Positions 3,602 to 23,274 of a stretch of DNA of 64,000 nucleotides are shown here, piece by piece. Under the pieces are notes generated by a model. It did no database searches, was not told the DNA's origin, and worked only from the letters and a program-made list of their open reading frames with translations. The translations under genes were made by a program, and so were the position numbers. Position 1 is the stretch's first letter; the number at the start of each line of letters is the position of its first letter. This DNA comes from Lachnospiraceae bacterium (lineage in GTDB: Bacteria; Bacillota; Clostridia; Lachnospirales; Lachnospiraceae): positions 1-64,000 of the forward strand of contig JAFQBM010000020.1 of the NCBI GenBank assembly GCA_017399685.1. The letters are read 5' to 3'.

Positions 3602-3633
3602 GAATTACCAAAATACAAAGGTTTTGGCAATTC
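3602..3633. promoter_or_regulatory. Inverted repeat in the response-regulator leader
   Basis: GAATTACCAAAA and TTTTGGCAATTC form a nearly perfect 12-base inverted repeat around an 8-base centre. It lies between the predicted promoter and the regulator gene. It could be an autoregulatory operator or an mRNA hairpin; no T-run follows, so it is a poor terminator. Confidence 0.45.
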
Positions 3634-3648
3634 ATAAACATCATAAAT

Positions 3649-3677
3649 AGTATAACATTCCATAGCCGGAAATACAA
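3649..3677 (-). promoter_or_regulatory. Promoter of the two-component genes
   Basis: TTGTAT (3672-3677) and TATACT (3649-3654) are separated by 17 bases on the minus strand, about 80 bases upstream of the regulator start. This suggests the two-component genes can be transcribed independently of the upstream transporter genes. Confidence 0.6.
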
Positions 3678-3722
3678 TTTATACTCACTAAAATTTCATA
3701 CCATGATTCATAACATTGCTTT

Positions 3723-17124: not shown

Positions 17125-17195
17125 TCAGCTTCCTCCTTGTATTCATCGATATCTGTACCACATCATACTACTGCAGGTGTGATACTTTAGTCTTT

Positions 17196-17294
17196 TCGTT
17201 TCCATACCATCATATCCTGTTTCTTCCATCAAGCAGTTTACATATTATTTTGTTTCTCTATATTTGATTGATATAAAATAATACCTTTACTCAT
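17196..17294 (-). pseudogene. Decayed 5' fragment of a flavodoxin gene
   Basis: The ATG at 17294 overlaps the marR stop exactly as the intact flavodoxin start at 18455 does in the second copy. The first codons read MSKGIILYQSN and then stop. The DNA remains recognisably similar to the intact gene (GAAGAAACAGGATATGA) to about 17196. This is the vestige of the flavodoxin from a tandem duplication. Confidence 0.75.
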
Positions 17295-17769
17295 ATTCCC
17301 GAATCTCCTTTAAATTATCTTCCATTTGTATAATGGTTTGTATTGTTACCTGTAATTGTTCCTGTGAAACATCTGCAAACAGATTTTTCATAAAGTTCAT
17401 AGTCATCCCTTCATTTTTTGCACAAAACTCTCTGCAATATTCAGTAAGCTCAATACGTTGTTTTCGCTTGTCATTTTCATCTGTTGTAATCTTTACAAAA
17501 TCTTTCTTTTCCAGTTTTAATAAAATCTGTTTTACATTCTGATGAGAACTGCCCATTATTTCCGCAAGTTCTTTTAGAGTTGGTGCATCCTTACACAGAT
17601 TGATACAGATAATAGCAAAAAACTGTTTCCAACTAACCTCTTTCATTGCATTATCTGCCAATGCCTGGAATCTATTTTCAAATGCACTTAATAATCCAAG
17701 TAAAAAATATGATAGTTCAATTCCTGTAAAATCTACTTTATCACTACTGATAACTTCTTTAATATTCAT
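17287..17769 (-). CDS. MarR-family transcriptional regulator
   Basis: The start is the ATG at 17769 behind GGAGG (160 residues). The winged-helix core includes PTLKELAEIMGSSHQNVKQIL and the wing KITTDENDKRKQRIELTEYC. The promoter contains the palindrome GTAATATATTAC, a likely self-operator. In the ancestral operon a flavodoxin followed with an ATGA-type overlap. Only the decayed start of that gene remains here, while an intact flavodoxin survives in the neighbouring copy. Confidence 0.92.
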   Translation of the reverse strand: MNIKEVISSDKVDFTGIELSYFLLGLLSAFENRFQALADNAMKEVSWKQFFAIICINLCKDAPTLKELAEIMGSSHQNVKQILLKLEKKDFVKITTDENDKRKQRIELTEYCREFCAKNEGMTMNFMKNLFADVSQEQLQVTIQTIIQMEDNLKEIREYE

Positions 17770-17784
17770 CTTATCCTCCGATAG

Positions 17785-17832
17785 GTAATATATTACTATG
17801 TACAAGGTAACACACTACCCATTTTTTGTCAA
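17785..17832 (-). promoter_or_regulatory. marR promoter and palindromic operator
   Basis: TTGACA (17827-17832), 17 bases, TACCTT (17804-17809). The 12-base palindrome GTAATATATTAC (17785-17796) lies just downstream, fitting MarR autorepression. A hairpin terminator (AGACGGA/TCCGTCT plus T-run, near 17838-17857) ends the flavodoxin transcript arriving from upstream. Confidence 0.65.
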
Positions 17833-17912
17833 CAGAAAAAGACGGACAACGATCCGTCTCTATCTTATCAATCCTGTCAAAAGACATTTTATAAAAATCA
17901 CTCGCTTTGTTT

Positions 17913-18455
17913 TCATTGCATTTCTTCACTTTCTCTGATGTATTTTATCAGTTCTTCCAAATAAATTTTATCTGTCCAATCACATTTTTTTCCAACTGCA
18001 CACATTAACGCTTTTTGCCAAGGTTCATGTTCATCCGGATTTTGTTTCGCAACTGCTTTCTTTAGCATATTGCAAAGTGTTTTATCAACAAACTTCATTT
18101 TCTCTTCATCCCATGCTCCACGACAATAGAACAAAGAAATATTACTAAGTGCATCTTTAAAATGCATCTCTCTTATCTGCATTATGGCTTTCTCATCATA
18201 AGGAGAGGCACCTACTGCAAATACGGCAATCTTTTTATCAGCTAACTGACCTATGTTTTTCTTTAGAAATTGCAGTCCTGCAATCCCGGATGCATAAACA
18301 CCTCCACCCAAAATGATTACATCATAATTCTGCAGATTTGCAACTTTAGCATTTTTTGTCTCAACACAGTCATACCCTGTTTCTTCCTGTAACCAATCAG
18401 CATACTTTTTCGTTGCTCCATATTTTGATTGGTATAGAATCATACCTTTACTCAT
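17913..18455 (-). CDS. Flavodoxin-domain protein (HemG/flavodoxin-like)
   Basis: The product has 180 residues. The FMN-phosphate loop is MILYQSKYGATKKYADWL, followed by DVIILGGGVYASG and IAVFAVGASPY, the flavodoxin_5 pattern seen in menaquinone-dependent protoporphyrinogen oxidases and related redox proteins. RBS AAGGAG. The C-terminal half has C-rich segments (FYCRGAW, MCAVGKKCDW). The role is probably cytoplasmic redox; the partner is unknown. It follows a degenerate marR fragment, from which it was originally translated by coupling. Confidence 0.88.
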   Translation of the reverse strand: MSKGMILYQSKYGATKKYADWLQEETGYDCVETKNAKVANLQNYDVIILGGGVYASGIAGLQFLKKNIGQLADKKIAVFAVGASPYDEKAIMQIREMHFKDALSNISLFYCRGAWDEEKMKFVDKTLCNMLKKAVAKQNPDEHEPWQKALMCAVGKKCDWTDKIYLEELIKYIRESEEMQ

Positions 18456-18570
18456 AATCTCGAATCTCCTTTAAATTATGTTCAAATACACTTAATAATC
18501 CTAGTAAATAGGATCATTCAATCCCTGTAAAATCTACTTTATCACTACTAATAACTTCTTTTATATTCAT
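18448..18570 (-). pseudogene. Internally deleted marR remnant
   Basis: The ATG at 18570 starts MNIKEVISSDKVDFTGIE, identical to the intact MarR, then hits TGA. Shortly after, the sequence jumps to the last codons (NLKEIRDYE) and a stop that overlaps the flavodoxin ATG. About 350 bases of the middle are missing. Confidence 0.85.
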
Positions 18571-18604
18571 TTCACCCTTAGATAAGTAATATATTACTTT
18601 TTAT

Positions 18605-18633
18605 AAGGTAACACATTACTTATTTTTTGTCAA
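18605..18633 (-). promoter_or_regulatory. Promoter of the flavodoxin copy
   Basis: TTGACA (18628-18633), 17 bases, TACCTT (18605-18610), nearly identical to the marR promoter at 17804-17832, again followed by a GTAATATATTAC palindrome. An AGGCGGA/TCCGTCT hairpin with T-run (near 18638-18662) lies upstream. The duplicated unit therefore includes terminator, promoter and operator. Confidence 0.65.
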
Positions 18634-18811
18634 TAGAAAAAGACGGACTATGATCCGCCTTTTTTCTCAATATAAACTTTTCGAAAAATTCTTCCAACAA
18701 ATTCATTTTTCCTGCATAATCCATGGAGAAATGATGCAAAAGTGGTAAAACCTGAAAGTTTCAAGTGCTTACAATTTCTTTTTAATCCTAAACAAATCTT
18801 ATAAGTTTTCA

Positions 18812-19540
18812 CTACTTTTTTATTTTTCTTTCAATTTCCAATACAAATTCAAGTGGCATTTCAATTTCTTTTGCTACTTCTTCTGCAGTTCTCCCTGCTC
18901 TCAAAGCATATACCGTTTTTGGCGCTTTTTCAGCCTTTAGCTGAGATTCTTTCATTTTAATATCCAATTCTCGCACATAATCAATAGCTATATCTAATTC
19001 TTCTGCTATTTCTTCTATGGTCTTACCTGCCCTCAAATAAGACGGTACCAGTTTTTTTCTTTGTTCTTTCTCATACTCTGCACGTTCTTCTTTCAATTCC
19101 CTATCCAGTTCCAACACGCATTCAACTGACATCTCAAACAATTCTGCTACTTCTTCCACGTCTTTCACCTGTAAAAGAGTTTTTGCAATATTTTTCGGTC
19201 TATCATCCTTGTAAACAAAATCAGGAACATCAGGATAACATTTAATTCTACCGTTTATCCATTTTATATATTCTTCCAGGCTATTATTGCCTCCGTCTCT
19301 AAGAAATCCAGAACTAAACCAACAATTACACCTTTTATCTATTTCATACAATCCTTCGTATCCATAATATTCTATTAAAAACTCCCATCCGGATTTTGTT
19401 ATATGTATATCATACCTGTAAATACACCTATAATTTAGCTCAATCTCTTCCGGCTTCATCAAATCTTCTTTTGTATATTCTCTTATATGGCTTAAGTCTT
19501 TGGCTGCAATAGAATGTGTTTTTCTACAATATGCCAGCAT
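18812..19540 (-). CDS. Hypothetical protein with repeated helix-turn-helix-like units
   Basis: No family was recognised in the 242-residue product. The first 100 residues are rich in Tyr, Trp and Cys. The last 130 contain three units of the form (T/V)xEE(V/I)AxExxxxxxxVxExxxxxK, for example AGKTIEEIAEELDIAIDYV and AGRTAEEVAKEIEMPLEFV. The units resemble short helix-turn-helix elements. GGAGGG precedes the ATG. The gene stands alone. Confidence 0.7.
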   Translation of the reverse strand: MLAYCRKTHSIAAKDLSHIREYTKEDLMKPEEIELNYRCIYRYDIHITKSGWEFLIEYYGYEGLYEIDKRCNCWFSSGFLRDGGNNSLEEYIKWINGRIKCYPDVPDFVYKDDRPKNIAKTLLQVKDVEEVAELFEMSVECVLELDRELKEERAEYEKEQRKKLVPSYLRAGKTIEEIAEELDIAIDYVRELDIKMKESQLKAEKAPKTVYALRAGRTAEEVAKEIEMPLEFVLEIERKIKK

Positions 19541-19956: not shown

Positions 19957-21735
19957 CTATACGCCAATTAATACATTCTTCCCTTCAAAGGCGAATCCGT
20001 ATTTTCGTATCTTTTCTTTTGGAATGCCCCTGGCAATCAGGTCTGTTTCATATTGTTTTTCTTCTATCTGGGCAAGGGCTTTTTCCACTGTTTCGGACAA
20101 ACTTTTCTCATCCTCTAAGTCCCTGACTTTAAATTCCAAAACAAAGGCATCCTTGGTTTTATCTTTTGGTTCTATTACCACATCATATCTTCCAAAACCG
20201 CTTTCCCTGTTGGAAGTTACGATATAGTCCCTTCCTAAATCCACTAAAAGACCAAGTACAAAGCCATGGTAAAACCGTTCCGGTTCATCTCCGAATTTTC
20301 CTTTTCCGGTATCAAAATAACTGAACATCGTGATGGTCAGCCTCTGCATATAATGATTCATTGCTTTTAAATCGCCTAAAAGCAGTGCCTTAAGAAAATA
20401 ATTGTACTCTTCTTCCGATTCATCAAACCAGCCCTGCACCATGGATTCGAACATAATCCGGACTTCCCCGTTGGTTATGGTTAATTCATAATTCGCTCTT
20501 CTTCCTACCTTGCCCATGTCTTCATAAGCCAGAATTTTCAGATAGCCACTTGCTACAAGCAGACTCCAGATGGCTGCCTTACTGCCATTTAACTGGTTAT
20601 ATACAATCTGCTCATCAATAGGACAAATAATACTTTCGCCCCGGAGCAATGCCTCAAATCCGGTTTTTACCTGACTGCTGCCTTCCCGGATTAGTTTGCC
20701 TACCAGACTGTTGGAGCTTGTATTTGCCCAGTAAGTGGTATATTCTCCGGTATCCAGAAAGTTAATGATAGACCACGGATTATAGATATCCCTGTTCTTT
20801 CCAAATACAAATCCGTCATACCATTCCTTGACTTTTTCTTTTTCTTCCCCAAATCCACAAGTATCCAATGCTGCAAATACTTCTTCTTCCGTGAAACCAA
20901 ATGAGGTGGCATATTCATTAGAAGTTGTGGTAACTACTTTTAAATTATTTAAATCCGAAAAAACGGATTCTTTTGAAACTCTTGTGATTCCGGTCATAAT
21001 CGCCCTCTCCAAATAAGGGTTGGTCTTAAAAGTAGAATTAAAGAAATTTCTGATAAACGCTACCATCTCATCCCAATAGCCGTAAACATAAGCTTCCTGC
21101 ATCGGAGTATCATATTCATCAAGTAAAATAATGACCTTTTTCCCATAATAACGACACAGATAATCGGATAAACGATGCAATGATGAACCCGCTTCAAATG
21201 CATCCATGTTCCTTGCCATCCGACTCATGTATTCCTTTTCATTCCCAGACAATTTATTACTTTCTATTACAAAAGAATATTTTTCAAACTGAAACATCAG
21301 TAATTCTATGATTCGCCTCTTTGTAGATTCAAAATCGGTTTCTTTTACTCCTGCAAAAGAAAGACTAATCACGGGATAGGTTCCTTGAAGGTTTTGATAC
21401 TTTTCTTCTTCCCAGATGGAAAGTCCTTCGAACAAATCTCCTCTTCCTGCATAATCCACGGAGAAAAATTCTTCTACCATGGACATATTTAACGTTTTTC
21501 CGAACCGACGAGGGCGGGTAATTAAGGTAACATCATCACCACTTTCCCACCATTCCTTGATAAATGAAGTTTTATCAATGTAAAAATTATGATTCTCTCG
21601 TAATTTCAAAAAATCCTGTATTCCGATTCCTACGGTATGGGTCATATTCGCAATATTTATCTTATTCTCTTTCTTTTTTATATTTTCAATATTCACTGTA
21701 TTGGTTGCATTTTCTGTCTTTTTCGTATCCGTCAT
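19957..21735 (-). CDS. AAA-ATPase-like / PDDEXK_9 family protein, full length
   Basis: The 592-residue protein is intact. The N-terminal AAA-ATPase_like domain has RRFGKT as the Walker A region and LLDEYDTPMQEAYVYGYW as the Walker B/sensor region. The C-terminal PD-(D/E)XK-type segment has Asp in GRYDVVIEP and an EFK motif in FVLEFKVRDLEDEK. A linker rich in TENATNTVN repeats precedes the core. The family is abundant and variable in Lachnospiraceae; biochemical function is unproven. It is the parent of the deleted copy at 24083-24496. Confidence 0.9.
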   Translation of the reverse strand: MTDTKKTENATNTVNIENIKKKENKINIANMTHTVGIGIQDFLKLRENHNFYIDKTSFIKEWWESGDDVTLITRPRRFGKTLNMSMVEEFFSVDYAGRGDLFEGLSIWEEEKYQNLQGTYPVISLSFAGVKETDFESTKRRIIELLMFQFEKYSFVIESNKLSGNEKEYMSRMARNMDAFEAGSSLHRLSDYLCRYYGKKVIILLDEYDTPMQEAYVYGYWDEMVAFIRNFFNSTFKTNPYLERAIMTGITRVSKESVFSDLNNLKVVTTTSNEYATSFGFTEEEVFAALDTCGFGEEKEKVKEWYDGFVFGKNRDIYNPWSIINFLDTGEYTTYWANTSSNSLVGKLIREGSSQVKTGFEALLRGESIICPIDEQIVYNQLNGSKAAIWSLLVASGYLKILAYEDMGKVGRRANYELTITNGEVRIMFESMVQGWFDESEEEYNYFLKALLLGDLKAMNHYMQRLTITMFSYFDTGKGKFGDEPERFYHGFVLGLLVDLGRDYIVTSNRESGFGRYDVVIEPKDKTKDAFVLEFKVRDLEDEKSLSETVEKALAQIEEKQYETDLIARGIPKEKIRKYGFAFEGKNVLIGV

Positions 21736-22980: not shown

Positions 22981-23155
22981 CCAACCGCCTCCTTTATCTT
23001 ACTTATTATCTTACTTATTATCTTACTTTATTATACAAATATTATAAGCAAAAGACAACCAAATTATATCCACCTAATGCAATTACTCCATTGACTTTTA
23101 TTCATACACATAATCTTTGAAATAGCCTGTTTCGTCTTGATAATCCAGCCATAAC

Positions 23156-23242
23156 TCAAACCAGCCCTGCACCATGGATTCGAACATAATCCGGACTTCC
23201 CCGTTGGTTATGGTTAATTCACAATTCGCTATTCTTCCTACC
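23156..23242 (-). pseudogene. Small AAA/PDDEXK gene fragment
   Basis: Eighty-seven bases are nearly identical to 20428-20514 within the intact AAA/PDDEXK gene (the VRIMFESMVQGWFD region). No start or stop belongs to it. It marks an old copy removed except for this relic. Confidence 0.8.
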
Positions 23243-23274
23243 AAATTCAAGGTAGTCTCTTATTAGACTTCTTT

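Follow-up and report, generated by a model that had tools for sequence, protein, structure and literature searches.

When two copies of a regulator-flavodoxin operon lie side by side and each has lost the gene that the other retains, does the one surviving MarR protein control both promoters, and how did the pair arise? This question is raised by a short segment of the window, the 64,000-nucleotide stretch of DNA analysed here (positions 1 to 64,000 of contig JAFQBM010000020.1 of a Lachnospiraceae bacterium). The genome is a draft of 3.25 Mb in 65 contigs, with an estimated contamination of 4.6%. On the minus strand, two units, each composed of terminator, promoter, double operator, marR and flavodoxin gene (fld), follow each other head to tail. 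The upstream unit, U, extends from 18660 to 17862 and is transcribed first, although the original prediction listed it as the second copy; the downstream unit, D, the first copy of that prediction, extends from 17861 to about 17158. The features of the two units are the following.

18640-18662, minus strand: T-run hairpin immediately 5′ of the U promoter, homologous to 17838-17861; fold -15.1 kcal/mol, z -5.6
18586-18632, minus strand: U promoter and double operator; TTGACA, extended -10 TGTTACCTT; operators GTAATGTGTTAC at 18608-18619 and GTAATATATTAC at 18586-18597
18457-18570, minus strand: what remains of U marR, 18 or so codons up to a TGA, about 360 nt missing, last 10 or so codons fused to the fld start
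17913-18455, minus strand: intact flavodoxin-domain gene of U, 180 aa, Pfam Flavodoxin_5 86 bits
17838-17861, minus strand: terminator behind U fld and immediately 5′ of the D promoter, fold -16.1 kcal/mol, z -4.4
17785-17831, minus strand: D promoter and double operator; GTAGTGTGTTAC at 17807-17818 and GTAATATATTAC at 17785-17796
17287-17769, minus strand: intact marR of D, 160 aa, winged helix, from Pfam MarR (31 bits), AlphaFold2 and alignment
17158-17294, minus strand: fld vestige of D, the first 46 or so codons with frameshifts and stops, from alignment

The homology of the two units is evident from two BLASTN matches, one of 187 nt (85%, E 2.5e-58) spanning the terminator, promoter, operators and 5′ end of marR, and one of 165 nt (78%, E 6.8e-34) spanning the 3′ end of marR and the 5′ end of fld. 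Repeat families D1-D4 and a gapped alignment agree with this homology. Two copies had been predicted to align beyond the promoter, and identity there is indeed above background, with 91% over 58 nt at the 5′ end of marR, 90% over 60 nt across the marR end and fld start, and about 75% in the segment that holds the fld vestige. BLASTN, alignment and repeats likewise bear out the predicted reciprocal gene loss: U combines an intact fld with a 114-nt marR remnant, and D an intact marR with an fld vestige. The vestige, put at 100 bases in the original prediction, is longer, about 137 nt, and continues about 40 nt past the earlier limit of 17196 to about 17158. Misassembly is an unlikely source of the pair, as the copies differ by 14-25% and sit inside a 96.8-kb contig.

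The intact genes can be assigned to their families with some detail. The MarR protein of D scores 31 bits against Pfam MarR (PF01047, cut-off 24.6), its AlphaFold2 model (pLDDT 89) shows helices and wing in the order of the MarR fold, and its sequence relatives in the PDB are MarR/SlyA proteins. The flavodoxin of U scores 86 bits against Flavodoxin_5 (PF12724, cut-off 27) over residues 5-135. Within U, the 3′ end of marR is fused to the intact fld start, which carries an AAGGAG ribosome site. The U remnant aligns by tblastn to residues 1-39 of MarR at 74%, interrupted by a premature TGA at codon 19, and the deletion appears to be bounded by short repeats, with GAAAATA plus GAAGATA in D and GAACATA where the ends join in U. 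Beyond D MarR and this remnant, the genome holds no other intact relative of the protein. D MarR has two CxxxC pairs, cysteines 55, 59, 112 and 116, of which the first three are conserved in 23 of 23 close relatives and the last in 21 of 23; distant homologues with the same operator (e.g. L072) are without them. This MarR group with four conserved cysteines may be a redox or metal sensor.

The control regions have been kept in both units, as the BLASTN match shows and as had been predicted, with two palindromes per promoter instead of the single one proposed. Both promoters consist of TTGACA, a 17-nt spacer and an extended -10 element (TGT TACCTT), and each carries the palindromes GTARTGTGTTAC and GTAATATATTAC, 22 bp apart from start to start. 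The palindrome already noted was GTAATATATTAC; its partner (GTAATGTGTTAC for U, GTAGTGTGTTAC for D) is located 22 bp upstream of it, within the -35/-10 spacer and touching the -10 element, with GTAATATATTAC just downstream. In U both palindromes are perfect or near-perfect and the 22-bp spacing is conserved; the first operator of D is an imperfect palindrome.

A hairpin with a T run stands directly 5′ of the -35 box in each unit. Because the same hairpin precedes the same operon in three relatives (L059, L060 and L062), it belongs to the operon unit. The predicted role as terminator fits only one of the two by position: the hairpin at 17838-17861 follows an fld gene and would therefore close U and shield D, and the one at 18640-18662 does not follow fld. 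However, transcription from U fld may still read through into D, a point against the proposed model.

The distribution of the paired operator offers a greater level of detail about its probable reader. The double motif GTARTRTRTTAC-N8-12-GTARTRTRTTAC occurs at two places in the 3.25-Mb genome, U and D, with zero matches for a reversed control motif. Among roughly 770 other Clostridia genomes of the family and class, the double motif with a spacer of 6-12 was found at 23 places in 23 genomes, and the control motif at none. At each of the 23 outside places a MarR homologue (28-80% identity) is encoded no more than about 0.45 kb away, and in most cases a flavodoxin comes next. The present genome is alone among those searched in having two double-operator places, and the U site is alone among all places found in having a broken marR behind it. 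Because the double operator occurs in this genome only at U and D and is found elsewhere beside a MarR homologue, D MarR is the likely reader of both promoters. The surviving MarR thus probably controls both, that of U in trans, a prediction well supported by inference from these sequence patterns.

Single palindromes elsewhere in the genome (contigs C18, C39 and C41) could be additional targets. These palindromes are located in coding sequence or have no partner site, and a wider regulon acting through them was set aside on these grounds. On contig C39 (2172-2183; L094:1501), an isolated single GTAATATATTAC lies about 20 bp behind a TATAAT-like hexamer, and the gene downstream of it has at least 863 codons and a signal-peptide-like start.

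The U operators might instead be relics, with U fld unregulated and D MarR controlling itself alone. The loss of marR from U looks recent, since 58 nt of its remnant still match D at 91%, and for that reason the conservation of the U operators is weak evidence of their use. On the other hand, the U palindromes are perfect or near-perfect at the 22-bp spacing, and the adjacent unit encodes a MarR that has the same operator. We consider an unregulated U fld improbable and retain control of both promoters by D MarR as the preferred reading.

The likely route to this arrangement starts from a compact autoregulated operon, in which a terminator would have been followed by a single promoter carrying a pair of MarR operators at 22-bp spacing, then marR and then fld, the fld start overlapping the marR stop. 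This order is observed in relatives with one intact marR-fld operon (L043, L044, L045, L056, L057 and L061). Two diverged copies of the operon would then have come into tandem, and D would have lost fld, the older and more decayed loss, with U losing most of its marR apparently later. The mismatch patterns of the two remnants point to this order. Comparison of the D vestige with U gives 31 mismatches over 135 positions, 15 at codon positions 1-2, as well as frameshifts; in the U remnant, 5 of 58 positions depart from D, 3 being third positions. Small as these numbers are, the sequences suggest that D lost fld first and that U lost marR afterwards, when D was able to supply MarR. The outcome would be two single-gene units, U giving flavodoxin and ending at the hairpin 17838-17861, and D giving MarR. 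We infer that MarR binds the paired palindromes at both promoters, repressing its own gene and, in trans, fld, until a signal, perhaps redox or metal acting at the conserved cysteines, releases it. The model as a whole, a split operon with reciprocal losses and one MarR acting on both promoters, appears to us quite likely.

Retention of marR with loss of fld is also seen elsewhere. Two relatives that keep the double operator have fld fragments (L062 and L077) and a third has none (L063), and the next gene in all three encodes a membrane protein of about 130-165 aa. At three further loci (L083, L085 and L086), a different protein of about 285 aa directly follows marR.

The origin of the pair is less clear-cut than its anatomy. 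The original prediction of a tandem duplication holds for the head-to-tail copies and is weaker for an origin within this lineage, where 83-86% identity between U and D compares with 79-84% to other genera. A true duplication in the lineage, old enough to have diverged to this level before the reciprocal losses, would account for the head-to-tail order and for the same terminator-promoter start in both units. In the 5′ segment common to both, U and D are the closest pair or tied for it: they match at 83%, whereas the values for Streptococcus orisratti, a Lachnospiraceae MAG (L060) and a Eubacterium MAG (L062) are 78-81%. Counted from the -35 box onward, U and D are 86% identical, with the nearest others at 79-84%. 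The marR tree joins U and D as well, albeit weakly (74/31). However, none of the 298 aligned columns is common to U and D alone, and the copies of other genera and of S. orisratti are equally close within error (79-84%). The fld tree furthermore pairs the D vestige with L057, and a constraint that joins U and D is worse by 8.7 log units (p-AU 0.061). We would give a duplication within the lineage slightly less than an even chance.

Alternatively, the second copy may have been acquired separately, the operon moving between bacteria of gut and rumen and one foreign copy recombining beside the resident operon. Near-identical marR genes occur in S. orisratti and a Lachnospiraceae MAG, further relatives occur in Treponema and Oscillospiraceae MAGs, and the window has no neighbours in common with any relative outside the operon. 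The U fld is 92% identical to that of L056 vs 75% to the D vestige over the same stretch, although decay of the vestige inflates the distance between U and D. A third broken copy is present on contig C13. Mobile-element ends were not seen, however, and the MAG contigs may be misbinned. Separate acquisition of the second copy is a tenable but tentative explanation. In a fuller scenario, two acquisitions would have placed the operon twice at this locus, and decay of complementary genes would then have turned a cis-autoregulated operon into a two-promoter regulon with the surviving regulator in trans. We regard this scenario as rather doubtful; if true, it would be a minimal natural case of a local regulator becoming the regulator of a regulon.

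Several observations accompany this comparison. The nearly identical marR-flavodoxin operons L059 and L060, from S. orisratti and the Lachnospiraceae MAG (a short contig), reflect either recent transfer or misbinning. The C13 copy (3618-3702 and on; L011:1501-1612) comprises the 3′ end of marR and the 5′ end of fld, promoterless and behind an A+T-rich hairpin. A phage or plasmid carrier was rejected, with no phage match, nothing in viral contigs and plasmids holding distant MarR proteins only (<60%). Outside the operon there was no synteny with relatives that could point to an empty or ancestral site, and the downstream LigT-like neighbour was found in only one other of 61 genomes, at 35%.

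Among the closest known counterparts are the single-copy marR-fld operons of Lachnospiraceae and other hosts (L043, L044, L056, L057 and others), which share the gene order, promoter and paired operators and encode MarR proteins with 78-83% identity. They differ in keeping regulator and flavodoxin in one intact operon, with one copy per genome. The bilirubin reductase operon bilQRS (PMC10769871), in which BilQ is a MarR protein and BilS a flavodoxin, is similar in that gut Clostridia encode a MarR regulator together with a flavodoxin-like protein in a single operon. Both proteins match the BilQ and BilS models weakly, but identity with them was rejected, the scores (31.5 against 125 bits and 22.6 against 155 bits) falling far under the NCBIfam equivalog cut-offs. 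In contrast to bilQRS, no reductase gene lies between marR and fld or among the neighbours scanned. PchR/YvmB of Bacillus subtilis is a MarR protein that represses its own and other promoters via several palindromic boxes (PMC4992311), the same control of self and others that is predicted for D MarR from its operators. PchR/YvmB differs in having its own 14-bp box and other targets, without tandem copies of one operon.

The locus is of a known circuit type, a tidy evolutionary example and not a new type of system, and its unusual feature is that the splitting of one operon into two units can still be read. Reconstructions of the passage from autoregulator to multi-promoter regulator usually depend on old and blurred events; at this locus the two broken halves are readable and the ancestral operon survives in relatives. 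As the operator is distinctive, the predicted two-promoter regulon is visible in the genome itself, and across Clostridia the paired operator defines a candidate MarR-flavodoxin regulon, of which we found no prior description in the open-access literature.

Two further repeats were observed in the window. Upstream of U, a 242-aa ORF at 18812-19540 contains a repeated unit of about 45 residues (LRAGKTIEEIAEELDIAIDYV / LRAGRTAEEVAKEIEMPLEFV). At 23098-23250, a 50-codon ORF repeats the stretch ELTITNGEVRIMFESMVQGWF of the 592-aa ORF at 19957-21735 and appears to be the remnant of a second copy.
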